This document shows positions 2,371 through 63,492 of a DNA stretch of 64,000 bases, piece by piece. Every line of letters begins with the position of its first letter. Within the stretch, counting starts at the first letter, position 1. Below the pieces are notes generated by a model, which searched no databases, had not been told where the DNA came from, and saw only the letters and a program-made list of their open reading frames with translations. The stretch is from Chitinophaga pinensis (GTDB taxonomy: Bacteria > Bacteroidota > Bacteroidia > Flavobacteriales_D > Crocinitomicaceae): positions 1 to 64,000 of the forward strand of contig CAMAZP010000002.1 in assembly GCA_945863605.1 (NCBI GenBank), written 5' to 3'. Made by a program: the position numbers and the translations under genes.

Positions 2371-2390
2371 TGGAGAAATAGAAAAACAGC

Positions 2391-3807: not shown

Positions 3808-6800
3808 ATGAAATTAATTTATTTTCAATTATTTCTTTCTTTTTTTTCTTTTATTAGTGTCGGATTAACTCAAAATTGCGATAATGACGCTGTTGATTTA
3901 GGCTCAGACTTAATATTATGTTCGGGCTCAACAGTGAATCTTGTAGCAAATATATCGAATGTTTCTAATTCCAACATTTCCGATTATACATGGGAACTTC
4001 TTGGACAAGGTATAATTCCAAATGTAAATTCATCAAATTACAACTTTACATTAACCAATTCGACGCAAGGAACCTATGTGGTCACTGTGAATTTTGATAA
4101 TAATTATAATTGCCCTTCAATAACAGACACTATTGTTTTAACTGGAGTACAATTAACTCCCGGAACAATTAGTGGAAATTTAATGATCTGTGATGGGTCT
4201 AATCCTCCTGCTTTCACAAGTATCACTCCAGGAACAACGGGTTCAAATATTAGTTACCAATGGCAATCTTCGACCGACAACACGAATTGGAATGATATTA
4301 ATGGTGAAACAAACGCCACCTATAATCCCGGAACGATAAATTCAATAATGTATTATCGCCGACTGGTGATATTTAACGGTCCTGGAAATAATAATTGTCA
4401 AGTTGCTTCCAATGTAGTTTCGTTACAAGAAGTTTCAGGAAATATAAACATTCTAGGGAATAGTTCACTTTGTGTCAATCAAGGTTCTACAAACCCGTTA
4501 ACCACAACTTTTTCAAGTACTCCAAACAACTTATCTCCAACCTATTCCTGGTCGGGCCCCAATGGGTTCTCAAGTACAATTTTAAGCCCGACATTGAGTG
4601 CTTTTAACTCAAATCAAGCAGGCACATATACCGTAACAGCAACAATTCCCAATGTATTTTCATCAACAAACAATGGCCTATGTCAGGTCACTGATAATGT
4701 TACCATTAACCTTAATCCAGTTACGCCAACATTTTCTATTCCGGCAACTGGTTGTCCAGGAGTTTCTTTCACCCCAACAGGTTTTACACCTCAATCTGGT
4801 ATGAATTATCAATGGTCGATATCTCCATCTATTGGTAATAGTACTGGGTTGAATACGGCTACACCAACTTTTTTGTTAAATAGTGGCGGCACATATACAA
4901 TTAATGTTACTGCTACCAATCCAATTGGGAACTGTTCTCTGACATCATCAAACGCTATTATTACTATATCAAATTTTGGAATTGATGTTCCAACTATTGA
5001 AATTGGAGGAACATATTATAATGTTACATCTTCAAATCCAACAACAATTGCTATTTGCGCGGGACTTAGCACAAGTGCAGTTAATATATTTAACAATAGT
5101 GTTCCTGAGAATGGGGGAAATAATCCAGCCGGTGTTTCTTACTCTTTTTCTATGAACGGATCCTCTCCCTCAACGATTTTAGATGTTGCTTCAAGTAATA
5201 TTAATTATGGAAATAATCCGCTAATTATAACCGCTAATTTCCAAGGATGTTCTTTATCACTTACAACAAATGTGTATTCTGGTTCAAATCCATTTGTCTC
5301 ATTTGGAACAAGTAATTCAATCGGTCTTTGTCCGGGGAATTCACTTTCATTAAGTATAATTCCAACCCCTCCAAATGGACAAAATAATCCGCCCGGAACA
5401 ACATACACAGTAACATATAGTGATGCATCTGGAGTTACTGATAATTTTATAGATTTAAATACTACAACAACGGTTAATCATACTTATTCTTATACTTCGT
5501 GCGGTATGACATATCCAGGGAATTTATATCCTGCGAACACTTTTTATGCTCAAGTAACTGCACAAAACTTCTGTGGACAAACTTCAAGTACGGTTTCTCC
5601 CATTACAGTGAATAATTTTCCAACGGCCAACTTCACTGTTTCAGACTCAACAATTTGCGTAGGTCAAAGCATTACAGTTACCAATATCGGTTCAGGTGGA
5701 AATGTAATTGGTAACACATCGCCTTACAATTGTTCTTCCCAAGGTAAATTTTATTGGACAATTACAGGTGGAGTTGCAGGTGTTGATTATACAGTTACAG
5801 GTGTATTAGGGAATTATTCAGCTATTTATTCCAATCCAAATGGATCTCCAAATATTTCGGGCAACGGCAGTAATACACTTATAATTACCTATAATAACCC
5901 CGGGTATTACACAATTACTCAACATTACTACAATAGCTGTGGTATAAAAACTAAAGTACGAAACATTTGTGTAATCAACCCTCCTATTTGCCAGTTCACA
6001 ACTACTCCGCAAAATGGTTGTTCCCCTTTAGCAGTAAATATAAATAATTCATCTGTCGCTCCAACTTGCAATGGAAGTCCTGTTCCTTTAAATTATGTAT
6101 GGACGATTTCGAATCCAATTACAGGAACCACTGCAACTATATCTTCGAATACTATTCAAAATCCTACATTGAATTTCACGAACACCACTACAACACCCCA
6201 AACATTTACAGTTGGGTTAAATGTAATACCGATGGAACCCGCTGCACCAACAATTCCTTTTTCGACCGCTTTGCAGACTTGTCCCACCACTATTAGTTTA
6301 ACTGGAACGGTTGGTTCAATTACGAGCACAACAACCGGAAATTGGAGCGCTACAATTACTGGCTTGACAAGTACAGCAGGTGTATTTCCAGGTGGGGTTA
6401 TTAGTGCTACCGCTGGTTTAGGAAGCATTGGCACGGGAGGTACATACACGGTAATAAGCGTAACAGCAACTACAATTACCTATTCGGCCTCAGGTGGAAC
6501 GGTACCAATTGCGGGCTCAATATCAAATATTATTCGTTATAATACTGGAACTGTTGGGTCGATTACAAATCTTGGAAATGGCAATTGGTCTGCAACCATT
6601 ACCGGCCTATGTAGTACAGCAGGAATTTCCGTAGGTTCGATCATTTACGCAACAAATGGCACCGGAAGTATTGGTAGTGGCGGGACATATACCGTAACAG
6701 CCGTAACACCAACCAGTATTTCATACACAGCAGTGGGAGGCACAACTCCAATAGCTGGAACACTATCAAACATTTACATCCCAACTTGTACCTCAACGTG

Positions 6801-9800
6801 TACTCAAGTTGTAACAGTTTATCCCGAAGTGAATTTCACAAATCCAACTACTGCGACATTGTGTAGTGGAGCGACTTTAGGAGTCAATATTACGACGAAT
6901 GTTTCATCCACATATACTTGGATTGCAACATCAAATCCAAATGTATCAGGAGAAAGTACGACCCTTCAAAATGGAGCAATTATCAATGATCAATTAGTAA
7001 ACCTTACCAATTCAGTTCAAACGGTTACTTATACGGTAAATGCTACTTCCATACCCGCGTTAGGATCTTGTACGAAAACTCAAACAATAACGGTTACCTT
7101 ATATCCTAATGTTACCCTTACTGATCCGGTGGATTTAGTTTTATGTCCTGGGATTGCTCAATCCTCCATTTCTTTTGTTAGCAATCCTTCATCAGGTGTT
7201 ACATTTTCTTGGACCAACAATAACACAAGCATAGGACTTGGCGCCTCAGCAAATGGTATAATTCCTTCTTTCACTCCTGTAAATAATACAAATACAAACG
7301 TCGTTGCCACTATTACTGTTACTCCGTTTTGGTTAACTTGTGCTGGCACACCCCAAACTTTCAGCATTACGGTAAAACCTATGCCAACGGTTGCTGATCC
7401 TGCAAATCAAACAGTTTGTTTGGGAGCGACCACAAATGCGGTGATTTTTACCTCTCCTACCAACGTAAGCGGAACCGTTTTTAATTGGACAAATACAACT
7501 TCTTCTATTGGATTAGCTGCAAGTGGAACTGGAGATATAAATGCTTTCACAACTACTGGCGCGGGAACAGCAACAATAACAGTGACACCATCTGCAAATG
7601 GATGTTCTGGAGCATCGCAAAGCTTTACAATTTTGGTAAAACCAATTCCGGTGATTTCTCCTATTACTAATCAAACGGTATGCGCTGGATCCAATACAAC
7701 ACTAATTACGTTTGGAAGCTCAGTTACAGGTACTACTTATTCATGGGTAAATTCTAATGCTGCAATAGGATTATCCGCATCAGGAAATAGTGCTACAATC
7801 CCCTCCTTTTTGACCACAAACACTTCTAATTCAGCTATTTCTGGCACCATTACGGTAACTCCTACATTCAATAGTTGCCCAGGCTTACCTATTTCGTTTA
7901 CTATAACCGTGAATCCTCGGCCTACAGTGGATGCTATTGCTAACCAAGTTATTTGTAATGGTGGATTGACAAATCCTGTGATTTTTTCATCTGCATTAAA
8001 TGTGGCAGGAACAACCTTTAATTGGACGAATAATACTACATCAACGGGTTTAGCATCAAGCGGAACTGGTGATATCAGTCAATTTACAGCGGTAAATAAT
8101 GGGAATACTAACCTCGTTTCAACAATAACGATAACTCCTGTTGCTGGCGGATGTAATGGAATTACTGGAAGTTTTACAATTACAGTAAAGCCAACACCTA
8201 TAGTCAATAGTATTTCAAATCAATCTATTTGTGCAGGAGCAAATTCAACCCCAGTTAGCCCAGGCTCTGCCACAGCGGGAACTACTTACAGTTGGACTAA
8301 CTCGAATCCATCTATTGGTTTAATCGCTTCTGGAAATGGCTCAATCCCTGTTTTTACTGGACAAAACACATCCAATTCTTCTAACATTGCTACTATCACC
8401 GTAACACCTACTGCGAACGGTTGCGCTGGAAGCCCATTAAGTTTTACAATTACCGTTAAACCAATTCCAACAGTAGATGCCATTACAAATCAAACTAATT
8501 GCAATGGAACGGCAACAACAGCAGTTTCGTTTAGTTCAGCATTTGGTGTTTCCGGAACATCGTTTACCTGGACAAATTCTAATTCATCGATAGGTTTAGC
8601 AGCTTCTGGATCAGGAAATATCTCATCATTTAATGCAATCAACACAACTGCCAATCCTATAACATCAACAATAACTATAACACCTAATGCCAACGGGTGT
8701 AATGGTACTCCTACTACATATACATACACCGTAAATCCCACACCAAGTGTTTCTGCAATCCCAAATCAAGTAAAGTGTGCTGGAACGCAAACTAATGCTG
8801 TTAACTTTTTAAGTAGTCCAACGGTTTCAGGAACCCAATACAACTGGGCTAATTCAACTACTTCAATTGGTTTAGGTGCTAGTGGAACAGGAAACATCTC
8901 TGCATTTCCTACTGTAAACACAGGCGCTACTCCTGTTGTTGCAACAATTACTGTTACTCCTACTGCTAACAATTGTTCTGGAAATCCTATTTCTTTTACA
9001 ATAACCGTCAACCCTACTCCTCAAGTATTAAACTTGAACAATTTAACGGTATGTCCTCAATCCATTGTACCTGCCAATGTATTGACATCCAATGTTGCCG
9101 GCGCAACCTATTCTTGGAATGTAAGTAATTCCAATCTTGGTTTAACACCAATTAGTGGAACAACAAACAGCATCCCTGGATTTACTGCTATCAACAATAC
9201 CACATCACCTGTCACCGGAACAGTAACAATAACACCAAGTGTTTTATTAAATGGTGTAACATGTGCTGGCCCACCTGCAACCTACACGATAACAGTAAAC
9301 CCAAAACCAATAATGACTCCATATAATCCACAATTATTTGTGTTTTGTGAGGCATCAACAGCAACCGTTAATTTTAATTCAAACATTTCCTCAAATATGT
9401 CCTATACATGGACAAATGATAATACAGCTATTGGAATCGGGGCATCTGGCACAAGTAGCTCACCTGGAGCAGGACTTTCATTTACAGCAGTGAATAATTC
9501 AAATCAACCATTGACATCCAATTTCATTTCGACCCCTTTTTACACCAATAATGGGGTTTCGTGCCCTGGAAATCCAGTTTCATTTGCTATTACAATTAAT
9601 CCACTTCCTGATATTATTCCGCTTAATTCATATACAATTTGTGCTACGAGTACGGGATCGAATTTATATTCCAGTTTAAATCCTATTGTTGGTTTGGGGA
9701 CTACTTACGTTTGGACAAATTCGAATACCGCAATTGGAATGATTTCATCAGGCACTGGATCAAATTTCTTTACTGCTACAAATACTACTTTGAGTCCTAT

Positions 9801-12800
9801 TTCGGGAACGGTAACAGTAACCCCAACTTATACAAATAATAATGTTGCGTGTACAGGAACGCCAATATCTTTTACTATTACAGTTACCCCAATGCCAACA
9901 GTTAATCCAATTGCGAATCAAAGTTTGTGCGTTGGAAGTTCAACTACAGCAGTTCAACCAACTGGAAATATACCAAATACTGTTTTTACATGGAATAATA
10001 ACAATACAACTACTGGTTTAGGATTAACTGGACAGGGACAAATTCCTTCATTTATTGGCTTAAATCCTACCAATCAACCAAATGTTTCAACAATAAATGT
10101 GGTTCCAAGTTTCACCTTTAATAATATAACATGTACTGGAACTGCAGGCCAATTTGGAATAACAATTAATCCAACACCAATATTAGACACAATCATTGAT
10201 TATCAAGTTTGCTCAAATTCAAATATAAATGTTGCTTTTACTTCTGCTTCAAATATTATAGGAACCAATTATCAGTGGTCAAATACGAATGCCAATATCG
10301 GGTTAAGTTCAGCAGGAAATGGCAATTTATCATTCAGTGCTACTAACACATCAAACACCCCTATTACTGGACAGATAACGGTTACGCCAAGTTATACAAA
10401 TGCAGGAATCACTTGCACAGGAAATCCTCGAACTTTTAATATAACAGTCCTACCTACTCCAATTGCCACTGCTATTTCTAATCAAACATTTTGTAGTGGT
10501 AACGCATCTAACCCGATCAATTTTAGTTCAAATTTGGTTGGAACTGTTTTTGATTGGACTAACTCAAATAATACTATAGGACTAGGGAGTAATGGAACTG
10601 GAACGATTCCAAGTTTTATCGGATCAAATACGACAAATCAACCTATTCAAGGAATTATTACTGTTTCACCTTCATTAACAACAAATAATCAAACTTGTTC
10701 TGGGGTTCCTGTTACCGCTACCGTTACAATAAATCCGGTTCCTGTAATGTCACCTATAAGTAGTCAATCGTATTGTCAAGGTGCATCAGTGAATTTGATT
10801 TTAAATTCAACAATAACAAATGGCGTAATTTATAATTGGACAAATTCTAACACAGCAATTGGGCTAGGAAGCGCAGGTACTGGAAATATTAATTTTACCG
10901 CACTCAATTCAACAAATAACTCAATAACGAGCGTTATAAGCGTTTCTCCTGTTTATACATATAATGGTGTATCTTGTACTGGAAACCCTTTAGTATTTAA
11001 TATTCAAGTTGTTCCTGCTCCAACTGTAAATCCAATACCTGACTTAGTAATATGTAATAACTCATTAACAAATCCAATCGTTTTTGGCAGTAACGCAGCA
11101 AATACAACATTCTCTTGGGTAAATGGCAATACATCTATCGGTCTTAGCTCAAGCGGAGCTGGAGACATTCCAGGTTTCACATCAATTAATCCTAGTTCAA
11201 ATACTCCATTATCCTCCATTATTTCAGTAACTCCCACGCTGTCTACAGGAGGTTCAACTTGTGTCGGTCAAACCCTCAATTTTACAATTACTGTAAATCC
11301 GACAACTACTGTTAATACAATACCTGACGTGACATTATGCAATAATTCAAACAGTTCAGGTATTAATTTTTCTGGAACGGGAAATAATTATACCTGGAAT
11401 AATAACAATACTAGCATTGGACTTGGGGCAACCGGAATTGGGAATATTCCTTCATTTAACGCAGCTAATTCAGGCACATCAATAATAACATCTACTATTT
11501 CCGTATTATCGCAATATACAGGAGGAGGAATAACGTGTAATGGTGCAAGTAATACATTTTTAATTACTATTAATCCTAGCCCAACGGTAATTGCACCACC
11601 AAACCAAATTTTATGTAATGGCTCAACATCAAATCTTATAAGTTTATCTGGCAATGCTACAAACTTTACTTGGACAAACTCTCAACCCAATATAGGATTA
11701 GCGAATTCAGGAGTGGGGAATGTTCCTGTTTTTACAGCGATTAACAATACAAGTAATCCTATTGTCGCAACGATTGATATTACACCAATCTATCAATACG
11801 GAATCACTTCCTGTACTGGCCCTGTTCAAAGTTTCACAATCACCGTCAATCCTGCACCTGCAGTATCTTTTAGCATTGGTAGTCAAACTATTTGTTCAAA
11901 TTCATCTAGTGCACCCGTCACCATTTCGTCGACGACAACAAATGCATTAATTTCTTGGACAGCTACATCCGTTCCCGCTTCTATTTCAGGGGTAAATACG
12001 ACCTCTGGAAATACGAATATTCCGGTTTTTAATATAGTTAATTCATCGAATAATCCTCAAACCATTACTTTTCTCGCCAATGCAACCACTTCTGGTAATT
12101 TAAGTTGTCCAGGAGGCGGAATTCCATATACAATTACTGTTAATCCAACAGCGACGATAGATCCAATTGGAAGTCAAGTAATTTGTGCCGGAACGTTAAG
12201 TTCAGCTATAAATTTCAGTGGTAATGCGACAAATTACATATGGACAAACAATACAACATCTATTGGACTAGGAGCAACTGGAAACGGAAATATAGCAGCT
12301 TTTCAAACAATAAATAATGGTTCAACTGTTGTCACATCAACTGTAGTTGTGACTCCACAATACATTTTAAACAACACAACATGTAATGGTTTACCGACAA
12401 CTCTAACACTTACCATAAACCCAATTCCTATTGTAAGCTCTCTTTCAAATTTAACCTATTGTAATAATTCCACCTCTCAGTTAATTTCCATATCGGGAAC
12501 AGGAACATCGTATGACTGGTCAAATTCAAATATCCAAATTGGTTTAGGTGCAACCGGATTAGGAAATATTAATCCCTTTACTACTCAAAATTCAACTAAC
12601 AATCCAATCAGTGGTACGATAAGTGTTTTGCCAACCTATACAAATAGCGGTTTATCCTGCCTAGGGGCAGCACAAACTTTTTCAATTACAGTAAACCCAA
12701 CATCAGTGGTGAACTTAGTTTCAGATCAAGTTGTTTGTAATAGCGCAAATACAAGTGCCATTCAATTTATTGGAACAGGTACATCTTATAATTGGTCAAA

Positions 12801-15800
12801 CTCAGAACCAGGAATTAATCTTGCTAATTCAGGAACTGGAAATATTCCCGTATTCACAGCAACAAATAATGGAAACACTCCTTTAATTAGCACATTAACT
12901 TCTACACCAGTTTTCACAAATAATAATGTTTCTTGTCAGGGCTCACCAATTTCATTTACAATTACAGTAAATCCTACCCCTATTGTAAATCTTCCGCAAA
13001 ATCAAGTTATCTGTAATGGAACTTCCACTAGCCAAATTGTATTCACTGGAACGGGAACATCATATAATTGGACGAATAGCAATAGTACAATTGGATTAAT
13101 TTCATCTGGAACTGGGACGATAAATTCTTTTACTGGGATTAATAATTCACTTGTAGCTTTGTCTGGTCAGATTAGTGTTACCCCCGAATATTTTGGTAAT
13201 TCAGTGTCATGCCAGGGTAACCCTCAATTATTTTCAATCACAATAAATCCATCTCCTTCAGTTGTAGATCCATCTGATCAAGTTATTTGCAATGGATTGG
13301 CCACAACTTCGGTTAATTTCACAGGTAATGGTTCTTCTTACAATTGGACAAATAACAATACAGCTAATGGGTTAGCTGCCGCAGGAACTGGTAACATTAC
13401 TAGTTTTAATGCTCAAAATAATACGAATTCCCCTATTTCTTCAACTATTACGGTTCAACCCATTTTTACAGGTGGAAATTTGAATTGCCCAGGTGTATCT
13501 CAAACATTCTCCATAACGGTTAATCCGACTCCCTCATTAAGTTCTGTAAGCAGTCAAGTAGTTTGTAATGGAACATCCACTAATCCGATTGCATTCAGTG
13601 GTAATAGCACTACTTTCTCTTGGGTAAATAATACACCTAACATTGGATTAGCTTCTAATGGAATGGGAAATATTGCATCATTTACTGCATTAAACTCAAG
13701 TAACACTTCACCATTAACAGGTACAATTACGGTTACTCCTCAATTTTCTAATAGTGGATTAACGTGCAATGGATTAGCACAACAAATAACGATAATAGTT
13801 AATCCAACACCGATTGTTTCATCAATTCCCGATTATACGCTTTGCAATGGAACAGCATCTACGCTCATATCCTTTAGCGGAACGGCTACATCCTACACAT
13901 GGTTAAATAACAATACAGCTATAGGCTTAACTACTAATGGGATCGGAAATATCGCATCGTTTATACCTACAAATGGGGGTATTCAACCTATCACAAGCTC
14001 CATTTCTGTAACTCCCACTTATAGTGGAAATGGGTTAAGTTGCATTGGTACAGATGAAGTTTTTGATATAACAATAAATCCAACACCAACTTTAAACCCA
14101 ATTGCGAATCAAGTGATTTGTAACGGAAGTCCTTCAACTTCTGTAGGATTTAGTGGAAGTGTTCCGAATTCTATTTTTAACTGGACAAATAATACGCCTT
14201 CAATAGGTTTGACCAATAGTGGATCAGGAACAATTGCATCATTTACAGGTGTAAACAGTTCTACAAACCCTGTTGTTGCACTAATCAATGTAACCCCTGA
14301 ATTTACAAATAATAATGTAGCATGTATTGGTTCAGCTCAGAACTTTACAATTACTGTAAATCCTACTCCATTAGTTAATTTTGATTTATCAAATCAAACC
14401 ATTTGCTCACAAAACAGCAATTCGTCAGTTACAATTAGTTCACCAACTTCAGGAGCAGTAATTACATGGAATTCAGTTACTATACCGTCTAATATTTCGG
14501 GATTTGTGGCAACTAGTGGTGGCTCAACTATTCCGTCTTTTAACTTAGTAAATTCAAGTTCTACTCCACAAATCATACAATTAGTAGCCAATGCAACTAC
14601 GGGTGGGAATTTAACTTGTCCTGGAGGAGGAACTCCTTATACGATTACTGTAAATCCAACTCCACTAGTTATAGACCCAAGTGATCAAGTAGTTTGTCAT
14701 AATACAACAACATCTCCTGTAATTTTTAGTGGTACAGGGACATCCTATACATGGTCAAATAATACCCCTTCAATAGGATTGGCAAATTCAGGACAAGGAA
14801 ACATCAATGCTTTTTCGGTTATTAACGGAACCAATTCAGTAGTAACGGGAACAGTTACTATTACTCCACAATATACTTTCAATAATACAACATGTCCTGG
14901 AGCAAGCGAAAACTTTACTATTACCGTTAACCCAATTCCATTGGTTAATCCTATTGCTAATGCTACATTTTGTAACGGTGGATCCACTTCATCAATTCCA
15001 ATTACAGGAACGGGTACAGCTTATTCATGGAATAATAGTAATCCTTCTATTGGATTGTCATCTTCAGGCACTGGAGCCATATCACCTTTTAATGCTGTAA
15101 ATACAGGACCAACTGCAACTAACGCAACAATTTCAGTTACACCAAGCTTTTTAAATTCTGGTGTAACATGTACTGGAAATAATGTAAATTTTACAATTAC
15201 TGTGAACCCAACACCATTAATTAATGGTATAACGAATCAAGTTGTTTGTAATAATACCCAAACAAGTTCAGTTAATTTTTCTGGAACTGGAACTTCATAT
15301 AATTGGACCAATGATAACCCTAATATCGGATTAGCGCTTTCAGGCACAGGGAATATTAATAGTTTTACAGCAACCAATAGCGGTAATCAAAATGATATTG
15401 TCACCACGATTACAGCAACGCCAATTTACACGAATAATTCAATTGCATGTCCAGGAGCAACCACTTCTTTTACTATAACCGTTAATCCGACACCAATAGT
15501 TAATGCTCCATTTAATCAAACCGTTTGTAATGGAGCATCAACATCACAGATTGTTTTTTCAGGTACTGGAACATCATATACGTGGACTAATAGCGATCCT
15601 TCTATTTCTCTTCCTGCAAATGGCAATGGGACAATTAATTCATTCGTAGCGACAAATAATGGATCGTCTCCATTAAATGCTCAAATAGCTGTAACCCCTC
15701 AATTCTTAAGTAACAATGTTAGCTGTTCAGGTAATTCACAAAACTTCACGATAACTGTTAATCCAACTCCAACGCTATTAGACCCGACAGATCAAGTTGT

Positions 15801-18800
15801 TTGTAATAACACACTAACAAGCGGTGTTAATTTCTCAGGAAATGGCACATCTTATTCTTGGACAAATGACAATCCATCAATCGGCATTGGAGCTACAGGA
15901 ATAGGAAATATTCAAGCATTTAATGCAATTAATTCCTCTCCTACTCCAGTGGTTGCAACTATTGCTATTACACCGAATTTTACGGGAGGAACTGCAAGTT
16001 GTCCGGGAGTTGGACAATCATTCACTATTACGATTAATCCTACTCCTCAGTTGTCTCCATTGAATTCAGAAGTGCTTTGTGATGGAAATACGACCAATCC
16101 GATTAATTTTTCTGGTAATGGAACTTCGTATTCGTGGACAAATAATTCACCTACAGTTAATTTAGCTGCATCTGGTATAGGTGACATTGCAAGTTTTATC
16201 GTTGATAATCCAAGTTCATCAAATGTTCTAGTATCAACAATTAGTGCGACACCCGTTTATACCAATGCTGGCTTAAGTTGCCAGGGAACACCTCAACAAA
16301 TGACTCTTACAGTTAATCCAACACCTATTATTTCACCAATTAATGACATTACTAATTGTAATAACTCAAATACACAAATAATCAATTTTGCTGGTACAGG
16401 CACAACCTATATTTGGACAAATAATAACACAACGATTGGTTTAAACACTAACGGTAATGGTAATTCAATAGGTTCTTTTAACTCAGTCAATCAAAGTACT
16501 CTGCCTGTTGTCTCATCAATTGTAGTTACTCCACAATATATAGCTAATGGCATTACATGTCCAGGAAATTCAACTAATTTTTCGATAACAGTCAATCCTA
16601 CGCCAACTGTAAATCCATTAAATAATCAAACAATTTGCGATAATACAACAACTAATACTGTCTTATTCACTGGATCTGTTCCTAATACCATTTACAATTG
16701 GACGAATAATATATCTACTATAGGTCTTTCTAATGCAGGTACAGGGGATATTCAATCATTCAATGCACAAAATAATGGAACAACGCCATTAACAGCACAA
16801 ATTACTGTCACACCAGTTTTTACATTCAACAATGTTAGTTGTTTTGGGAGCTCTCAGTCATATTCTTACATAATAAATCCAACGCCAACTGTAAACAATC
16901 CTGGAGATCAATTTTCATGTGAGGGTATTAACACATCTAATTTGGTATTTGGTGGTACGGGTAATAGCTATAGCTGGTCAAGTTCAAGTCAAAGTACAGG
17001 TATCCCACAAAATGGGTATGATAATATTGCTTCCTTCTTTACTCAAAATGGAAGTACAGGTCCAATATCTAGCATAATAACTGTAACACCATTTTTTAAT
17101 TCAACCAATTCTTCTTGTCCAGGATCTCCGCAACAATTCACTTATTTTGTATTACCTAATCCACTCGTTACTGCAATCCCGAACCAAAGTTATTGCCATC
17201 AATCGCTTGTACCAGCAACCCAAATAAATGGAACAGGAACTTCGTATTCATGGTCAAACAACAATACAACCACTGGATTAATATCGAATGGTTTAAATAG
17301 TGTTCCTAGTTTCACGGGTGTTAATCCTTCTTCTATTCCAAATATTAGTGCAATCACAGTTACACCTGTTTATTCTTTTCAAGGGAACTCGTGTAATGGC
17401 CCCAACTCCTCTTACTCCATAACCATCAATCCTTTACCACATGTAAACTCCATAAATGATACTGTGATATGTAATTATGAAAGCTTGGCTACCACATTAG
17501 GATCCAATATTCCAGCTAATTTCACTTGGAGTGCAATATCTAATAATAATGTCAATGGAGAATTAACTACAACTCAAACTTCAAATTTCATAATAGATTC
17601 TCTTGCTAATTTATCAAATTCACCACAATTTGTAACCTATACCATTACTCCAACTTCGTTTCCGGAGGGATGCATTGGACCGGATTCTTCATTTATTGCC
17701 CAAGTTCAACCTGATGTTGTTCTTTCAATTCCAACCAATTTAGAAATATGCAGTGGATCTCCAGTTAATGCTATTTTAAATTCAAATATTCCTTCCAACT
17801 TCCAATGGTTTGTATCTATAAATAATCCAAATGTAATTGGGGAGTCATTACTAACTAATACCAATAATGTAATTGCTGATGTGTTAATTAATAATGCAAA
17901 CACAGATCAAGTTGTAATTTATTCAGTTTTTCCAACCTCAATTCAAGGTAATTGTATTGGTGCTGCACAAACAATAACTGTTATTGTTAAACCTCCACTT
18001 GCCTTGTTAAATACTGACACATTAACAATTTGCAGTAATGACAACGTAAATTTAAATTTAGTAGCAAATACAAATGTCACTTTTAATTGGTATGCAGATC
18101 AGTCACTTAATGTTTTGAATGAAAGCACCTCTATTACAACCTCATCCATAATTAATGATGTTTTATTAAATCCTACAGGTAATGTAGAAGAAGTAACCTA
18201 TCATGTTATCGGAACCTCAGCCGTCAATGGATGTTCCAGCCCTATTATACCGATTACTGTATTTGTAAATCCAACACCAATTGTAGACCCAACGCCAGAT
18301 TTAAACTTATGTCATAATTATTCAAACCCACCAATTCTATTTACTGGAAATGTTACAGGTGCTGAATACAGTTGGACATCTTCAAGTGTTGCAATTGGTT
18401 TACCTTTTTCAAATGGATTAAATTCAATACCTGGATTTTCCACTACAAACCTAAGTTTATCGACTGTTTCAGCAATTATAGATGTAGAGCCAGTATTTAC
18501 CAATAATAATATTTCTTGTTATGGAACAATTGATCAATTTACAATTGTAATTAATCCTGAACCATCCATTTATCCTTTGTCCGCTATATCGCTTTGTCAT
18601 GGAACTGCATCTAATTTAGTTCAAATAGCAGGCCCTATCAGTGGTACAACATATACATGGACAAATTCTAATCCTGCAATTGGATTAGGAGGGAACGGAA
18701 TAGGTAATATCCCTTCATTTTTCGGAACTAATTTGACAAATTCTACTATTCAATCTACAATTTCTGTTACTCCTGCTTATGTTAATAATGCAACTATTTG

Positions 18801-20154
18801 TTATGGTCAAGTAGTTACAATAGGAGTTACTATTCATCCATTGCCAAATATTCTAAATGATGATATTACTATTTGTTCTGGAGAAAACACAAACATTACC
18901 TTACTTTCAGATATAGCGAGTACATTCGAATGGGAAGCAATTCCATCGATGAATGTATATAACGAGACGTCTTATCCTATGCAAACAAGTTCTTTAATTT
19001 CTGATAATTTGGTTCAATTAGGGAATATTCAAGAAGTAGTGCAATATCAAGTTACCCCAATTTCAATTCCATTTGGTTGTGTAGGTCCAAATTCTACAAT
19101 TTCTGTATATGTAAATCCACTACCTTCTGTAAATTTTGCTGTTATTAATCCTCCTTTTTGTGATCTAAGCCCTATTACTTTTCAAAATAATTCATTAGGA
19201 ATTTTGGATTTTGTATGGGATTTCGGAGATGGTACAATTTCTTATTTAAATAGTCCGACCCATCAATTTCTATCAGTAGGTAGTTTTAATGTACAATTAA
19301 ATGCAACAAATCCTTTAACAGGATGTACAGATAGTATAATGCTACCTTTAGTTATTTCTCCATCTCCAAATGCTAACTTTAATTATTCAGATTCCATTGG
19401 TTGTGATGTGTTAGACGTAATTTATACAGCATCAACATCAAATCCCTCATGGAATTATTTATGGGATTTTGGAAATGGACAAACAACACAACAGGTAGGT
19501 GCTGTTGGCTATCAATTTAACCAAGAGGGCTGCTACGATGTAAGCCTTACAGTAACTAATGATCAAGGATGTACTTCTTCTGAAACATATTCAAATATTG
19601 CTTGTGTTTTCGACAGTCCAATAGCCAGTTTTATTGCTAGTCAAATGAATTTAAGCGTAATCGAACCTTTAGTTTATTTTTATAATGAATCTCAAAATAC
19701 AACATCATTTGAATGGGATTTTGGTGACGGTACCATCGGATTTGCTGAAAATCCAATTCATACTTTCCCCGGAGAGGCTGGAGATTATAATGTAATTTTA
19801 ACTGTGTATAACCAAATTGGTTGTATTGATACAGCATCTATTTATATTAATATTTTTCAAGATTTAATTTTTTATGTTCCAAATAGTTTTACACCTAATG
19901 GTGATGAAGAGAATCAGATTTTTCTTCCCATACTTACCGCAGGATACAAAAAAGATACGTATAGATTAACTATCTATAATCGCTGGGGAGAAATGGTATT
20001 TGAATCAAGAGATGAAAATTTGGGATGGTATGGTTCTTATGGAACTTTAGGAAAAGATTGTCAAATTGGAACTTATACTTGGATCATTGAAGTTGAAATG
20101 TTACAGAGTCAAGAAGTAAAGAAATTTATCGGTCACGTTAATTTAATTAGATAA
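3808..20154 (+). CDS. giant secreted PKD-like repeat protein with CHU_C (T9SS type B) sorting domain
   Basis: One uninterrupted frame of 5448 codons. Residues 1-21 form a signal peptide ending before QNCDNDAVD. Residues about 22-1098 are Ig/PKD-like segments, including an 81-residue tandem duplication at 833-989. Residues 1099-5101 hold about 43 units averaging 93 residues. Each opens with a VNPTP-like linker and a Cys about 15 residues later, has an aromatic-W-T-N core followed by IGL and SGxGNIxxF, and closes with a second Cys and FTITVNP. This matches the PKD-like domain family seen in Bacteroidetes. PKD domains with WDFGDGT cores follow (about 5102-5340), then a CHU_C domain from about 5356 starting PNSFTPNGD. 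The two regular cysteines per unit suggest one disulphide per domain. It is probably a T9SS-exported, surface-displayed filament or adhesin in the size class of SprB. No PorP/SprF-like partner lies next to it. Confidence 0.9.
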   Translation: MKLIYFQLFLSFFSFISVGLTQNCDNDAVDLGSDLILCSGSTVNLVANISNVSNSNISDYTWELLGQGIIPNVNSSNYNFTLTNSTQGTYVVTVNFDNNYNCPSITDTIVLTGVQLTPGTISGNLMICDGSNPPAFTSITPGTTGSNISYQWQSSTDNTNWNDINGETNATYNPGTINSIMYYRRLVIFNGPGNNNCQVASNVVSLQEVSGNINILGNSSLCVNQGSTNPLTTTFSSTPNNLSPTYSWSGPNGFSSTILSPTLSAFNSNQAGTYTVTATIPNVFSSTNNGLCQVTDNVTINLNPVTPTFSIPATGCPGVSFTPTGFTPQSGMNYQWSISPSIGNSTGLNTATPTFLLNSGGTYTINVTATNPIGNCSLTSSNAIITISNFGIDVPTIEIGGTYYNVTSSNPTTIAICAGLSTSAVNIFNNSVPENGGNNPAGVSYSFSMNGSSPSTILDVASSNINYGNNPLIITANFQGCSLSLTTNVYSGSNPFVSFGTSNSIGLCPGNSLSLSIIPTPPNGQNNPPGTTYTVTYSDASGVTDNFIDLNTTTTVNHTYSYTSCGMTYPGNLYPANTFYAQVTAQNFCGQTSSTVSPITVNNFPTANFTVSDSTICVGQSITVTNIGSGGNVIGNTSPYNCSSQGKFYWTITGGVAGVDYTVTGVLGNYSAIYSNPNGSPNISGNGSNTLIITYNNPGYYTITQHYYNSCGIKTKVRNICVINPPICQFTTTPQNGCSPLAVNINNSSVAPTCNGSPVPLNYVWTISNPITGTTATISSNTIQNPTLNFTNTTTTPQTFTVGLNVIPMEPAAPTIPFSTALQTCPTTISLTGTVGSITSTTTGNWSATITGLTSTAGVFPGGVISATAGLGSIGTGGTYTVISVTATTITYSASGGTVPIAGSISNIIRYNTGTVGSITNLGNGNWSATITGLCSTAGISVGSIIYATNGTGSIGSGGTYTVTAVTPTSISYTAVGGTTPIAGTLSNIYIPTCTSTCTQVVTVYPEVNFTNPTTATLCSGATLGVNITTNVSSTYTWIATSNPNVSGESTTLQNGAIINDQLVNLTNSVQTVTYTVNATSIPALGSCTKTQTITVTLYPNVTLTDPVDLVLCPGIAQSSISFVSNPSSGVTFSWTNNNTSIGLGASANGIIPSFTPVNNTNTNVVATITVTPFWLTCAGTPQTFSITVKPMPTVADPANQTVCLGATTNAVIFTSPTNVSGTVFNWTNTTSSIGLAASGTGDINAFTTTGAGTATITVTPSANGCSGASQSFTILVKPIPVISPITNQTVCAGSNTTLITFGSSVTGTTYSWVNSNAAIGLSASGNSATIPSFLTTNTSNSAISGTITVTPTFNSCPGLPISFTITVNPRPTVDAIANQVICNGGLTNPVIFSSALNVAGTTFNWTNNTTSTGLASSGTGDISQFTAVNNGNTNLVSTITITPVAGGCNGITGSFTITVKPTPIVNSISNQSICAGANSTPVSPGSATAGTTYSWTNSNPSIGLIASGNGSIPVFTGQNTSNSSNIATITVTPTANGCAGSPLSFTITVKPIPTVDAITNQTNCNGTATTAVSFSSAFGVSGTSFTWTNSNSSIGLAASGSGNISSFNAINTTANPITSTITITPNANGCNGTPTTYTYTVNPTPSVSAIPNQVKCAGTQTNAVNFLSSPTVSGTQYNWANSTTSIGLGASGTGNISAFPTVNTGATPVVATITVTPTANNCSGNPISFTITVNPTPQVLNLNNLTVCPQSIVPANVLTSNVAGATYSWNVSNSNLGLTPISGTTNSIPGFTAINNTTSPVTGTVTITPSVLLNGVTCAGPPATYTITVNPKPIMTPYNPQLFVFCEASTATVNFNSNISSNMSYTWTNDNTAIGIGASGTSSSPGAGLSFTAVNNSNQPLTSNFISTPFYTNNGVSCPGNPVSFAITINPLPDIIPLNSYTICATSTGSNLYSSLNPIVGLGTTYVWTNSNTAIGMISSGTGSNFFTATNTTLSPISGTVTVTPTYTNNNVACTGTPISFTITVTPMPTVNPIANQSLCVGSSTTAVQPTGNIPNTVFTWNNNNTTTGLGLTGQGQIPSFIGLNPTNQPNVSTINVVPSFTFNNITCTGTAGQFGITINPTPILDTIIDYQVCSNSNINVAFTSASNIIGTNYQWSNTNANIGLSSAGNGNLSFSATNTSNTPITGQITVTPSYTNAGITCTGNPRTFNITVLPTPIATAISNQTFCSGNASNPINFSSNLVGTVFDWTNSNNTIGLGSNGTGTIPSFIGSNTTNQPIQGIITVSPSLTTNNQTCSGVPVTATVTINPVPVMSPISSQSYCQGASVNLILNSTITNGVIYNWTNSNTAIGLGSAGTGNINFTALNSTNNSITSVISVSPVYTYNGVSCTGNPLVFNIQVVPAPTVNPIPDLVICNNSLTNPIVFGSNAANTTFSWVNGNTSIGLSSSGAGDIPGFTSINPSSNTPLSSIISVTPTLSTGGSTCVGQTLNFTITVNPTTTVNTIPDVTLCNNSNSSGINFSGTGNNYTWNNNNTSIGLGATGIGNIPSFNAANSGTSIITSTISVLSQYTGGGITCNGASNTFLITINPSPTVIAPPNQILCNGSTSNLISLSGNATNFTWTNSQPNIGLANSGVGNVPVFTAINNTSNPIVATIDITPIYQYGITSCTGPVQSFTITVNPAPAVSFSIGSQTICSNSSSAPVTISSTTTNALISWTATSVPASISGVNTTSGNTNIPVFNIVNSSNNPQTITFLANATTSGNLSCPGGGIPYTITVNPTATIDPIGSQVICAGTLSSAINFSGNATNYIWTNNTTSIGLGATGNGNIAAFQTINNGSTVVTSTVVVTPQYILNNTTCNGLPTTLTLTINPIPIVSSLSNLTYCNNSTSQLISISGTGTSYDWSNSNIQIGLGATGLGNINPFTTQNSTNNPISGTISVLPTYTNSGLSCLGAAQTFSITVNPTSVVNLVSDQVVCNSANTSAIQFIGTGTSYNWSNSEPGINLANSGTGNIPVFTATNNGNTPLISTLTSTPVFTNNNVSCQGSPISFTITVNPTPIVNLPQNQVICNGTSTSQIVFTGTGTSYNWTNSNSTIGLISSGTGTINSFTGINNSLVALSGQISVTPEYFGNSVSCQGNPQLFSITINPSPSVVDPSDQVICNGLATTSVNFTGNGSSYNWTNNNTANGLAAAGTGNITSFNAQNNTNSPISSTITVQPIFTGGNLNCPGVSQTFSITVNPTPSLSSVSSQVVCNGTSTNPIAFSGNSTTFSWVNNTPNIGLASNGMGNIASFTALNSSNTSPLTGTITVTPQFSNSGLTCNGLAQQITIIVNPTPIVSSIPDYTLCNGTASTLISFSGTATSYTWLNNNTAIGLTTNGIGNIASFIPTNGGIQPITSSISVTPTYSGNGLSCIGTDEVFDITINPTPTLNPIANQVICNGSPSTSVGFSGSVPNSIFNWTNNTPSIGLTNSGSGTIASFTGVNSSTNPVVALINVTPEFTNNNVACIGSAQNFTITVNPTPLVNFDLSNQTICSQNSNSSVTISSPTSGAVITWNSVTIPSNISGFVATSGGSTIPSFNLVNSSSTPQIIQLVANATTGGNLTCPGGGTPYTITVNPTPLVIDPSDQVVCHNTTTSPVIFSGTGTSYTWSNNTPSIGLANSGQGNINAFSVINGTNSVVTGTVTITPQYTFNNTTCPGASENFTITVNPIPLVNPIANATFCNGGSTSSIPITGTGTAYSWNNSNPSIGLSSSGTGAISPFNAVNTGPTATNATISVTPSFLNSGVTCTGNNVNFTITVNPTPLINGITNQVVCNNTQTSSVNFSGTGTSYNWTNDNPNIGLALSGTGNINSFTATNSGNQNDIVTTITATPIYTNNSIACPGATTSFTITVNPTPIVNAPFNQTVCNGASTSQIVFSGTGTSYTWTNSDPSISLPANGNGTINSFVATNNGSSPLNAQIAVTPQFLSNNVSCSGNSQNFTITVNPTPTLLDPTDQVVCNNTLTSGVNFSGNGTSYSWTNDNPSIGIGATGIGNIQAFNAINSSPTPVVATIAITPNFTGGTASCPGVGQSFTITINPTPQLSPLNSEVLCDGNTTNPINFSGNGTSYSWTNNSPTVNLAASGIGDIASFIVDNPSSSNVLVSTISATPVYTNAGLSCQGTPQQMTLTVNPTPIISPINDITNCNNSNTQIINFAGTGTTYIWTNNNTTIGLNTNGNGNSIGSFNSVNQSTLPVVSSIVVTPQYIANGITCPGNSTNFSITVNPTPTVNPLNNQTICDNTTTNTVLFTGSVPNTIYNWTNNISTIGLSNAGTGDIQSFNAQNNGTTPLTAQITVTPVFTFNNVSCFGSSQSYSYIINPTPTVNNPGDQFSCEGINTSNLVFGGTGNSYSWSSSSQSTGIPQNGYDNIASFFTQNGSTGPISSIITVTPFFNSTNSSCPGSPQQFTYFVLPNPLVTAIPNQSYCHQSLVPATQINGTGTSYSWSNNNTTTGLISNGLNSVPSFTGVNPSSIPNISAITVTPVYSFQGNSCNGPNSSYSITINPLPHVNSINDTVICNYESLATTLGSNIPANFTWSAISNNNVNGELTTTQTSNFIIDSLANLSNSPQFVTYTITPTSFPEGCIGPDSSFIAQVQPDVVLSIPTNLEICSGSPVNAILNSNIPSNFQWFVSINNPNVIGESLLTNTNNVIADVLINNANTDQVVIYSVFPTSIQGNCIGAAQTITVIVKPPLALLNTDTLTICSNDNVNLNLVANTNVTFNWYADQSLNVLNESTSITTSSIINDVLLNPTGNVEEVTYHVIGTSAVNGCSSPIIPITVFVNPTPIVDPTPDLNLCHNYSNPPILFTGNVTGAEYSWTSSSVAIGLPFSNGLNSIPGFSTTNLSLSTVSAIIDVEPVFTNNNISCYGTIDQFTIVINPEPSIYPLSAISLCHGTASNLVQIAGPISGTTYTWTNSNPAIGLGGNGIGNIPSFFGTNLTNSTIQSTISVTPAYVNNATICYGQVVTIGVTIHPLPNILNDDITICSGENTNITLLSDIASTFEWEAIPSMNVYNETSYPMQTSSLISDNLVQLGNIQEVVQYQVTPISIPFGCVGPNSTISVYVNPLPSVNFAVINPPFCDLSPITFQNNSLGILDFVWDFGDGTISYLNSPTHQFLSVGSFNVQLNATNPLTGCTDSIMLPLVISPSPNANFNYSDSIGCDVLDVIYTASTSNPSWNYLWDFGNGQTTQQVGAVGYQFNQEGCYDVSLTVTNDQGCTSSETYSNIACVFDSPIASFIASQMNLSVIEPLVYFYNESQNTTSFEWDFGDGTIGFAENPIHTFPGEAGDYNVILTVYNQIGCIDTASIYINIFQDLIFYVPNSFTPNGDEENQIFLPILTAGYKKDTYRLTIYNRWGEMVFESRDENLGWYGSYGTLGKDCQIGTYTWIIEVEMLQSQEVKKFIGHVNLIR
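6304..6774 (+). repeat. 81-residue tandem duplication in the giant protein, unlike its other repeats
   Basis: Two adjacent copies encode residues 833-913 and 914-989. Shared pattern: GTVGSIT, GNWSATITGL, STAG, GSIGxGGTYTV, a xTxITY/SY stretch, then GGTxPIAG and SNI. The pair sits as an insert in an Ig-like segment bounded by CPTTISLT and PTCTSTCTQ, and has no VNPTP linker or SWTN core. From memory, the pattern resembles repeats in phage structural and tail-fibre-like proteins from marine data sets; that resemblance is not verified here. Confidence 0.75.
7102..19110 (+). repeat. array of about 43 PKD-like domains (residues 1099-5101)
   Basis: I counted 43 units by their linker plus first cysteine (for example VNPTPIVNLPQNQVIC and VNPTPLINGITNQVVC). 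Mean spacing is about 93 residues. The units fall into subtypes. One common form has SGTGTSYTWTN after the first cysteine. An earlier form has a longer pre-core such as SATAGTTYSWTN. Two units (starting near residues 2690 and 3520) are a variant with ISWTA or ITWNS and TSGNLSCPGGG-like ends. Three late units (near 4560-4830) have FTWSA or FQWFV cores. The DNA repeats are diverged rather than identical. Confidence 0.85.
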
Positions 20155-58978: not shown

Positions 58979-59836
58979 CTAATACTTAATTGTTAGTGCG
59001 CTGTATTTCGTCACCGCTTTGCCTTCCAAATCTTTAGCGGTAACGTAGTAAATATAATTTCCAGCAGGAAGTTTGTCACCGTTTAAATTTGTTCCGTCCC
59101 ATTTAAAATCAGCGTCTTCAGATTTGAAAACAACATTGCTTTTCGAGTCGAGAATAACTATCACAAATTCGTTAACGTTTTCAACATCTAATTTTAAATA
59201 GTCATTATTTCCGTCGCCATTTGGAGTGAAAATATTCGGAAGTTTAAACTGTAATTTGCTTTCCTCTGGTAATTTTTCGGTTTCAACATTTTGTTTAGAC
59301 TCTTGATTTTGAGCCGAAGTAGCTATTTCGACCTTCGGATTATTTTTTGGTGCTTTTAAATCTTCTTTTGTTTCTATTTGTGCGTAAGAAATAGGTCTTT
59401 CAACTAAAGCTGTGCTTTCAAAAGTAGTATTATCAATTATTGATTCAATTTGACTAATCGTTCCTATTACAGTATTCTCAGAAACACGATTTATAGGATT
59501 CGAATTGTTTACTTTAGAAACAGTTGAATTGTTTTCTACCTTATTTTCAGTTGGATTTGATTTAGATACCTTTTGTTTGTTGGCTTTTTGAACCTCAATT
59601 TTTGGAGTTTCCTTCGCCTCCTCTTTAGATAGAAAAATAATCGTTCCAGTAACACTTGCAGCAATGGTAATACCAATACTAATTTTTGCAAGAAGCGACA
59701 TTCCAGCAGTTGTTGCAACAGCTGAGGAACTTGCAATCGAAGAAGAAACCGCTGACCAAAGTTCAGGACGCACAGGTGTTTCCAACTGCGAAAGTTTTTC
59801 TTGAAACAAATCTTTAATACTGTCTTTTTCTTCCAT
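58979..59836 (-). CDS. anti-sigma-like membrane protein with C-terminal CHU_C (gliding-associated) domain
   Basis: The 285-residue protein has a 47-residue N-terminal part with LFQEKLSQLETPVRPELWSA, which matches the ExFxxKLxxxExxVpPxxWxxI pattern of Bacteroidetes anti-sigma proteins. One transmembrane helix lies at about 48-69. A Ser/Asn/Lys-rich linker covers about 70-195, and a CHU_C-type domain 199-285 starts LPNIFTPNGDGNNDYLKL and has FKWDGTNLNGDKLPAGNYIY. It lies 1 bp behind the ECF sigma gene, the usual sigma/anti-sigma order. A T9SS type B-like signal placed in the periplasm on an anti-sigma anchor is unusual and suggests it senses or competes for the T9SS machinery. It could also simply be a membrane-anchored structural protein. 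Confidence 0.78.
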   Translation of the reverse strand: MEEKDSIKDLFQEKLSQLETPVRPELWSAVSSSIASSSAVATTAGMSLLAKISIGITIAASVTGTIIFLSKEEAKETPKIEVQKANKQKVSKSNPTENKVENNSTVSKVNNSNPINRVSENTVIGTISQIESIIDNTTFESTALVERPISYAQIETKEDLKAPKNNPKVEIATSAQNQESKQNVETEKLPEESKLQFKLPNIFTPNGDGNNDYLKLDVENVNEFVIVILDSKSNVVFKSEDADFKWDGTNLNGDKLPAGNYIYYVTAKDLEGKAVTKYSALTIKY

Positions 59837-59837
59837 A

Positions 59838-60362
59838 TTATCTTTTTTCTAATCGGTCTCTCAAATATGCCCTTGCACGTAAATACTGTGATTTTGATGT
59901 GCTTTCTGTTACGCCAAGTGCTGCTGCAATTTCTTGATGTGAATAGCCTTCAATCGCAAACATATTAAAAACGACTTTATAACCTTCAGGCATACTTTGA
60001 ACGAGCTTCATCAAATCTTCTGCCATTAATCGCTCGGTAATAAAATCTTTGTGCTCAAGTTTGTATTCCACTTCTTCAGCTTGAATATCACCTTGAAATT
60101 TTACATTTTTACGAATTTGATCCAAGCAAGTGTTTACCATAATGCGACGAATCCAACCTTCCAAAACACCTTCATTTTTATAATCAGAGAGTTTTGTGAA
60201 AACCTTCACCAATCCATCTTGTAAAACATCTTCTGCTTGTTGGCTATTTTTCATGTAGCGCAGGCATACACTGTACATTTTAGGGGCAAATTTGTCAAAC
60301 AACGTTTTTTGCGCCTTCGGATTTCCTTTTATACATTCATTAACTAATGTGAAATCATCCAT
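59838..60362 (-). CDS. ECF-type RNA polymerase sigma factor
   Basis: The protein (174 residues from the ATG at 60360-60362; a TTG 12 bp upstream is also in frame but less likely) has sigma region 2 with RYMKNSQQAEDVLQDGLVKV and GWIRRIMVNTCLDQIRK. Region 4 has the helix-turn-helix YSHQEIAAALGVTESTSKSQ. It has no extra sensor domain, as is usual for sigma factors held by a membrane anti-sigma factor. The next gene, 1 bp away, encodes that presumed anti-sigma factor. It is divergent from the TlpA-like gene across an 88-bp gap, which may be one of its targets. Confidence 0.9.
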   Translation of the reverse strand: MDDFTLVNECIKGNPKAQKTLFDKFAPKMYSVCLRYMKNSQQAEDVLQDGLVKVFTKLSDYKNEGVLEGWIRRIMVNTCLDQIRKNVKFQGDIQAEEVEYKLEHKDFITERLMAEDLMKLVQSMPEGYKVVFNMFAIEGYSHQEIAAALGVTESTSKSQYLRARAYLRDRLEKR

Positions 60363-60397
60363 AACGCTTGACAATGACTTGTATAATTATTTAAAAG

Positions 60398-60429
60398 TTG
60401 CATTAATATTAGTTAATACCTTAAATTCG
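60398..60429 (+). promoter_or_regulatory. possible promoter of the TlpA-like gene (TTG, 21 bp, TAAATTCG)
   Basis: TTG at 60398-60400 and TAAATTCG at 60422-60429 have 21 bp between them and sit 21 bp before the ATG. The -7 element departs from TAnnTTTG at one position (TTCG), so the call is weak. Confidence 0.3.
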
Positions 60430-61973: not shown

Positions 61974-62117
61974 AAAGAGGTCTCGTCCGAACCTAATAGC
62001 AGTTAATCTGTATTTATTGAATGATTACAATATAAACTTGAAAACCTAATAAAATATAGAGTTTTTGCAGTTTCTTAATTGTTTATAGTTAATTACAATT
62101 AATATTAATTAATGAAT

Positions 62118-62138
62118 GGTTGCACAACGGTTGCACAA
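62118..62138 (+). repeat. two direct GGTTGCACAA repeats overlapping the integrase promoter
   Basis: GGTTGCACAA occurs at 62118-62127 and 62129-62138, one helical turn (11 bp) apart. Each contains the interrupted palindrome TTG-CA-CAA. The position, 35-55 bp before the integrase start, fits an operator or an arm-type integrase binding site. Confidence 0.6.
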
Positions 62139-62152
62139 TTGTATTATCTTTG
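62120..62152 (+). promoter_or_regulatory. integrase promoter (TTG, 22 bp, TATCTTTG)
   Basis: TATCTTTG (62145-62152) fits the -7 consensus exactly. A TTG inside the first direct repeat (62120-62122) lies 22 bp upstream. The leader to the chosen ATG (62173) is about 15 bases. This promoter position argues that the start is 62173, not the ATG at 62116 which lies upstream of the promoter. Confidence 0.58.
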
Positions 62153-62172
62153 AGAATCAAATTATCAAAATA

Positions 62173-63492
62173 ATGGCAACAGTTAAGTATTTAGTGCGTG
62201 GCACTTCAAACCCCTCAAAGATTTATGCAAGACTTTCAGACGGTCGTACAGATAATGGAGGTATTCGATTAATAGCAGACACAAACATTTTAATTAATCC
62301 TAAATTTTGGGACACAAAAAAGGGAATGCCTAAACAAATGGCAGAAAACAGCGAGAAATTAAACCAAGAAACAGAATTAAAGGACTTAGATATTAAAATT
62401 CTCAAAGAATACGCAAAAGCCAAAGGAACTGGAGCAACCATAAACAAAGATTGGTTAATTGATGTAATTGCAAAATTCAAGAATCCACTACTGGAGCAAA
62501 AAACAGAATATTTGAAAGACTTAATCGAAGCCTATCAAACTGAAATGAAAACAAAGATTAATCCTAAAACTGGAAAACCAATTTCACACCTTACAATAAA
62601 AAGTTTTAGCACTACTTTGATGAGGTTAAAGAAATTTGAGGAATACAAAAACAAACGTTTTTCAATTAGCGATGTTGATTTGACTTTCAAAAATGAATTT
62701 GTAAAGTATGAAAGTGAAAAATTGTTGATTTCTCAAAATAGTATTTCAAAAGATATTCGACAAATAAAAACCGTTTGTTTGGATGCCAACGATAAAGGCT
62801 TTTCAATTAGCGAACAATTACGTTCAAGAAAGTTCTACATAAAAGAAGAGCAAACAGCATTCGTAACCATTACAGAAAGTGAAATTGAACTAATCAAAAA
62901 ATGCGATTTGAAAAAAGTCAACTACTTAGAGAATGCGAGGGACTGGCTAATTATTGGATGTTGGACTGGATGCCGTGTTAATGACTTAATGCAGTTGACA
63001 AATGATAATATTCAAATCACAACCAAAGGACAGAAATTTATTAGATACACCCAAAGCAAAACAAATAAACAAGTTGATATTCCTATTCATTCAGACGTTA
63101 ACGAAATACTGGAGCGTTTAGGAAATTTTCCCCGACCGATTTCAGACCAACGTTTTAACGAATGGATTAAAAAAGTATGTTTACAAAGTGGATTAGTTCA
63201 AGAAGTTCACGGAACAAGGCAAAACCCAACAACCCACCGCAAAGAAGTTGGAACGTTTCAAAAGTGGGAATTGGTACGTTCACACACTTGCAGACGTTCT
63301 TTTGCTACAAATCATTACAATAAGCTACCTAATAAATTAATAATGGCGGTTACTGGACATTCAACAGAAAAAATGTTGCTCAACTACATAGGGGAAACAG
63401 AAAACGACCATTTAGATGACTTTTTAAGCGTTTGGAACACACCAAAACCGAAAGACGAAAAGATTATTCAATTGAATGAGAAACAAGGTTAA
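62173..63492 (+). CDS. tyrosine recombinase / integrase of the Bacteroidetes mobile-element type
   Basis: From the ATG at 62173 the protein has 439 residues. An N-terminal arm-DNA-binding domain starts ATVKYLVRGTSNPSKIYARL. A SAM-like core-binding domain covers about 110-215. The catalytic domain has R268 (WTGCRVNDLMQL), H371-x-x-R374 (RSHTCRRSFATN), H396 (VTGHSTEKML) and the nucleophile Y405 (NYIG). These N-terminal features separate it from XerC/D and match integrases of conjugative transposons, genomic islands and prophages in this phylum. It lies at the left end of whatever element continues beyond the window. Confidence 0.9.
   Translation: MATVKYLVRGTSNPSKIYARLSDGRTDNGGIRLIADTNILINPKFWDTKKGMPKQMAENSEKLNQETELKDLDIKILKEYAKAKGTGATINKDWLIDVIAKFKNPLLEQKTEYLKDLIEAYQTEMKTKINPKTGKPISHLTIKSFSTTLMRLKKFEEYKNKRFSISDVDLTFKNEFVKYESEKLLISQNSISKDIRQIKTVCLDANDKGFSISEQLRSRKFYIKEEQTAFVTITESEIELIKKCDLKKVNYLENARDWLIIGCWTGCRVNDLMQLTNDNIQITTKGQKFIRYTQSKTNKQVDIPIHSDVNEILERLGNFPRPISDQRFNEWIKKVCLQSGLVQEVHGTRQNPTTHRKEVGTFQKWELVRSHTCRRSFATNHYNKLPNKLIMAVTGHSTEKMLLNYIGETENDHLDDFLSVWNTPKPKDEKIIQLNEKQG

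Follow-up and report, generated by a model that had tools for sequence, protein, structure and literature searches.

An ECF sigma factor paired with a membrane anti-sigma-like protein that carries a type B T9SS sorting-domain fold, and its predicted link to type B cargo genes in Crocinitomicaceae

Introduction

Why would a membrane-bound anti-sigma-like protein end in the sorting-domain fold of secreted cargo? The question is raised by a gene pair in a 64,000-nucleotide stretch of DNA (hereafter, the window; positions 1 to 64,000 of contig CAMAZP010000002.1, GenBank assembly GCA_945863605.1, deposited as Chitinophaga pinensis and placed in the Crocinitomicaceae by GTDB), in which an extracytoplasmic function (ECF) sigma factor is followed by a protein with the CHU_C fold typical of type B cargo of the type IX secretion system (T9SS). 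Genes for type B cargo are enriched behind copies of the promoter box that precedes this pair, so that the anti-sigma-like protein carries the tag of the very cargo that its sigma factor may drive. The cell may thus be keeping the synthesis of T9SS cargo in step with the capacity to export it.

Architecture of the sigma/anti-sigma pair

The sigma factor gene (59838..60362, minus strand) encodes 174 amino acids (aa) from an ATG at 60362, and its product matches the Pfam families Sigma70_r2 (E 1.6e-15) and Sigma70_r4_2 (E 1.3e-14). An alternative TTG start at 60374, 12 nt upstream, would give 178 aa; the ATG is the likelier start, since the promoter box at 60376-60402 leaves hardly any space before the TTG. 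The second gene (58979..59836, minus strand; 285 aa) starts 1 bp past the sigma stop (59838 to 59836), as described in the earlier note on this DNA. The two genes probably form an autoregulated ECF module in which the anti-sigma-like protein presumably binds the sigma factor.

The 285-aa protein has four parts. Residues 1-35 (59732..59836, minus strand) form a cytoplasmic N-terminus, presumed from the AlphaFold2 model and profile comparison to be sigma-binding, with helices at 6-16 and 24-35 predicted at modest confidence (predicted local distance difference test score, pLDDT, 57-69 by block). A single transmembrane helix follows at residues 51-70 (59627..59686, minus strand), supported by AlphaFold2 and by hydropathy, the most hydrophobic 19-mer beginning at residue 52 (mean 1.90). 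With the hydrophobic helix at this internal position, hydropathy and the model, used here with no signal-peptide program, give no evidence of an N-terminal Sec signal peptide. Residues 71-191 (59264..59626, minus strand) make up a disordered periplasmic tether, pLDDT being 43-56 in ten-residue blocks across 71-190, 77 for 191-200, and 94-98 for 201-285. Its length, measurable in 35 of 40 orthologues, ranges over 117-237 aa with a median of 130; such a tether could span the periplasm. Residues 192-285 (58982..59263, minus strand) adopt the CHU_C/type B sorting-domain fold: PF13585 (CHU_C) matches residues 198-273 with 60.3 bits (cut-off 27; E 2.1e-16), and TIGR04131 matches the protein with 46.3 bits (cut-off 35; E 3.6e-12). 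The single membrane helix, the disordered linker, and the C-terminal CHU_C fold proposed earlier are therefore all borne out by profiles and structure prediction.

The sorting domain on the anti-sigma-like protein differs from that of cargo in one motif. The tripeptide RWG is absent from all 68 rows of anti-sigma domains (65 distinct) and from the 39 CHU_C partners of named genomes. All 31 type B cargos predicted as targets have it, as do 6 of the 7 type B controls and 6 of the 7 cargo segments from the window's own genome. A study in Flavobacterium johnsoniae reports that the SprB C-terminal domain (CTD) is not secreted unless each of five conserved type B motifs is present (PMC12618676). RWG is, by our own identification, probably among these five, and if so, the tag on the anti-sigma would not be exportable. 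Judged from the missing motif, the anti-sigma sorting domain thus may not be exportable. In addition, a tree that groups all anti-sigma domains in one clade apart from cargo is not rejected (p 0.56 in the approximately unbiased (AU) test, on few columns and with long branches), so that nothing points to renewal of the domain from cargo genes.

Conservation and partner classes

A CHU_C match of some kind was found in each of 150 genomes, including that of the window, and, among the matches listed, at least 65 of 85 same-genus genomes have a single match spanning the whole query. From 57 loci (the window's included), 40 adjacent sigma/CHU_C pairs were extracted, with gaps of -22 to +28 nt between the genes. 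Among the other 17 loci, 13 have CHU_C cargo instead (L002-L008, L047-L049, L052-L054), three are cut by contig ends (L015, L036, L038), and L046 is a pair by eye that is not among the extracted 40. Nine pairs from other families encode partners of 361-391 aa with, by eye, a PKD-like segment ahead of CHU_C, which is the usual domain order in cargo.

A scan of named genomes with the sigma factor as query, covering the best 80 loci among the matches listed, gave 79 partners (one locus, L232, has no downstream open reading frame, ORF): 39 with CHU_C, 19 with OMP_b-brl_2, 4 with OMP_b-brl, and 8 with PKD_4. Related sigma factors are also paired with barrels or bare tails instead of CHU_C. These 39 partners and the 40 extracted pairs bear out conservation across Flavobacteriales, a check that the earlier note had proposed. 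The pair is present in two cultured species, Crocinitomix catalasitica (L238) and Fluviicola chungangensis (L229); in the latter, the N-terminal helices are encoded in frame ahead of the called ATG, so its start codon is probably not an ATG.

In a tree of the sigma factors, one fork (82 in the Shimodaira-Hasegawa-like approximate likelihood ratio test, SH-aLRT) unites 42 CHU_C rows with a single row of another class, a 21-row fork containing the window has an SH-aLRT of 98, and the CHU_C label needs six changes overall. A profile of the first 85 residues of CHU_C-type partners, compared with 19 of the 24 long-type partners, matched at 98.4% probability; by this comparison, the N-terminus shares ancestry with that of the longer partners, most of which are barrel-like. 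The anti-sigma looks like one of the dual-membrane-spanning (Dma) type whose barrel was replaced. In family f17 (presumed Flavobacteriaceae), a CHU_C match was found in none of the 10 partners read, and all seven complete partners are barrel-like by eye.

Promoter box and predicted targets

An ECF-type promoter box, TGCAACTTTT-N14-GTC, presumably autoregulatory, is present as an exact site in the window at 60376..60402 (minus strand). In 38 of the 40 pairs, the short form, TGCAAC-N18-GTC, lies at most 200 nt upstream of the sigma gene or barely inside its called start, and the longer TGCAACYTTT-N14-GTC precedes the sigma gene in 28 of 40. Among named loci, the short box accompanies 18 of 39 sigma factors with CHU_C partners (16 of the 18 such loci nearest to the window), compared with 1 of 24 with long partners and 3 of 16 with short ones. 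Across 86 genomes of the genus, 189 long boxes were found versus 20 for reversed controls, and 82 genomes have at least one. The window's genome has the long box twice (control, none), once before the sigma gene and once, on contig C43, before a gene whose product is a CHU_C cargo of 810 aa. Seven named genomes hold 11 boxes, seven of them the pair's own; of the other four, two stand before the small ORF described below together with a secreted protein resembling target family L118, one before a secreted-looking ORF, and one before no ORF.

What lies behind the boxes was assessed in 80 stretches sampled around mostly non-sigma boxes, among the matches listed; sites such as four at G018:C38 and one each at G025:C29 and G030:C25 fall outside this sample. 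By profile searches, a type B domain is encoded by 31 of 55 unique downstream ORFs versus 6 of 92 other ORFs of the same stretches (Fisher p 2e-11; by sequence family, 5 of 17 versus 2 of 51, p 0.009), and a type A domain by 5 of 55 versus 12 of 92. Among the 100 site rows, as corrected by eye, type B cargo accounts for 34 and short units that lack an ORF for 26; nine have a NarL-like regulator, two the sigma gene, nine no ORF, and seven other ORFs, and eight are cut by contig ends. In a second family (f3; 39 genomes), 12 of 20 exact boxes are the sigma promoter. Of the other eight, five stand before complete, RWG-bearing genes for type B cargo (four from one orthologous family), one precedes a contig-cut ORF of the same cargo family (L212/L340), and two (L206, L207) precede no cargo. 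The sigma factor appears to transcribe its own operon and type B T9SS cargo genes. The earlier suggestion that the sorting domain reports on the T9SS is partly supported: the common box, which the earlier note did not have, links the pair to type B cargo, and the absence of RWG speaks against a functioning sorting signal.

Several other arrangements were seen behind the box. In same-genus loci L099, L101-L106, L145, and L168, two to four short units stand in tandem, each with its own box and no ORF, and have by eye a terminator-like hairpin and T run within about 100 nt; there are 26 such units in total. In L099 and L101-L106, an OmpR-like response regulator is encoded about 1-2 kb downstream of the array. 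These units are candidate sigma-driven small RNAs; an Rfam search of the window and of six loci with arrays gave no match at the gathering score. Five further rows initially counted as small RNA-like (L111, L147, L154, L169, L174) contain long ORFs and were dropped, reducing the set from 31 to 26. A conserved, secreted-looking ORF of 119-130 aa lies between the box and a large secreted-protein gene in L107-L111, L118, L148, L163, L165, L184, and L194; this large gene is type B cargo in the last six, the C-termini of L107-L111 lying outside the sample. In nine rows (L112-L114, L149, L161, L167, L175, L178, L181), a 214-aa NarL-like regulator is encoded 106-108 nt behind the box.

Two other genes of the window may be mentioned. 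The ORF at 3808-20154 (plus strand) encodes a secreted-looking protein of 5448 aa with many similar repeats by eye and an RWG-bearing, type B-like sorting domain at its end, and the 458-aa ORF at 62116-63492 (plus strand), near the pair, resembles a tyrosine recombinase by eye and is possibly a mobile-element integrase.

Possible mechanisms

The reading tentatively preferred here, although judged slightly less likely than not, is that of a Dma-like anti-sigma whose tethered, non-exported sorting domain docks at T9SS sites and thereby sets the release of the sigma factor. The N-terminal helices would hold the sigma factor at the inner membrane, and the tethered, probably non-exportable sorting domain would reach the outer membrane and dock where cargo tags dock, at a PorP/SprF-like shuttle or the SprA translocon; the window's genome encodes SprA and has 14 PorP/SprF matches, some of them partial. 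Free or blocked docking sites would set how tightly the sigma factor is held, in either direction, and its release, probably via proteolysis, would allow transcription of its own operon and of type B cargo. In its most specific form, in which a disabled copy of the cargo tag gauges type B docking capacity and sets transcription of cargo (and, in some relatives, of short-RNA arrays), this proposal is a possibility that we hold with appreciable doubt.

A number of observations weigh against this picture. The loss of RWG could reflect loss of T9SS recognition altogether, and the box could be read by another ECF sigma factor. A second CHU_C-type pair is present in the window's genome with similar upstream sequence and different spacing (L333, G000:C5:87500-91500, positions 944-2698, minus strand); the partner encoded there, of 426 aa, has an N-terminus of this type and matches CHU_C weakly (E 1.8e-4), and the spacing of the similar upstream box is the shorter one. 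The exact box is missing from 21 of the 39 CHU_C-type named sigma factors, and only the pair's own box was found in F. chungangensis. Relaxed boxes are not enriched in the window's genome (11 versus 16 reversed controls; with one mismatch, 32 versus 47), so no wider regulon is claimed there, and the regulon of this genome may be limited to one operon plus one cargo gene. The type B enrichment compares targets of at least 200 aa with controls of at least 300 aa, and counts across related genomes are not independent. Finally, no T9SS machinery gene was noticed behind the box in the sampled stretches, by eye and with no dedicated search.

A real rival, to which we give a minor share of belief, is that the CTD fold was co-opted as a generic sensor in the periplasm, for glycan, Ca2+, or envelope stress, and that contact with the T9SS is gone. 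The lost RWG would fit, as would the pairing of related sigma factors with barrels or bare tails, and structure comparison indicates that the Ig-like fold of CHU_C is common to many unrelated proteins, some with higher Z scores than T9SS domains. However, such a sensor leaves the enrichment of the predicted genus regulon for the same domain unaccounted for, as it does the type B cargo behind five of eight non-sigma boxes in f3 and the cargo-like order of PKD-like segment and CHU_C in partners from other families.

Export of the anti-sigma itself appears unlikely. The flagellar secretion machine is coupled to late-cargo transcription through FlgM, a soluble anti-sigma factor of sigma-28 that is exported; by analogy, a competent T9SS would pull or cleave the sorting domain, destroy the anti-sigma, and free the sigma factor for cargo transcription. 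In favor of such a scheme, the regulator of the predicted cargo regulon itself bears a domain of cargo type, on a tether of the length given above. Docking without export is favored over it because the motif is lost and the membrane anchor is internal rather than an N-terminal signal peptide; the compatibility of the anti-sigma domains with a clade of their own, weak in columns and branch lengths as stated, also counts against export. Self-regulation alone, with the cargo boxes read by another ECF sigma factor of similar box preference, is improbable: it would agree with the single other exact long box in the window's genome, the lack of any other in Fluviicola, and the paralogous pair with related upstream sequence, but not with a box that stands before this sigma factor in nearly all pairs and before few related sigma factors with other partners.

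If docking of a tethered, non-exported sorting domain is correct, the pair would sense the type B branch of the T9SS directly, in a form accessible in cultured hosts, and the outer-membrane end of Dma-like anti-sigmas would be a swappable sensor slot.

Comparison with known systems

In a literature search with thin coverage of subscription journals, no anti-sigma factor with a T9SS sorting domain was found. Compared with T9SS type B substrates, the anti-sigma-like protein shares the C-terminal CHU_C/TIGR04131 domain above curated cut-offs and differs in lacking RWG and, by hydropathy and model, an evident N-terminal signal peptide. With FlgM/sigma-28 it would share the coupling logic and differ in its membrane helix and apparently export-incompetent tag.

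The architecture of Dma-type anti-sigmas is known with outer-membrane barrels in Bacteroidota (PMC13088901): an N-terminal sigma-binding domain (presumed here), one transmembrane helix, a long disordered tether, an adjacent ECF sigma factor, and a C-terminal domain meant for the outer membrane are common to both, whereas theirs is a beta-barrel and the present one has the type B sorting-domain fold and a predicted regulon of T9SS cargo. This likeness rests on architecture and on the long partners of related sigma factors rather than on the sequences of Dma1-3. The SM6 ECF regulon of Flavobacterium psychrophilum, which includes gldN, porU, a putative small RNA, and an ECF/anti-sigma pair among its targets (PMC9723704), is alike in its CGT-type -10 box; unlike what was noticed by eye in the stretches sampled here, T9SS machinery is among its targets, and the presumed-Flavobacteriaceae f17 partners have no CHU_C match (0 of 10). 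In Porphyromonas, PorA affects PorXY-SigP, such that a CTD protein acts upstream of a T9SS sigma factor (PMC7712824). The P. gingivalis system resembles the present pair in that a protein with a CTD acts above an ECF sigma factor, there one in control of T9SS genes; however, PorA is a separate surface protein acting via a two-component system, and its CTD is not on an anti-sigma factor. Thus, the barrel version of this architecture and a CTD protein upstream of SigP were already known, and what appears to be new here is the sorting-domain fold on the anti-sigma itself.
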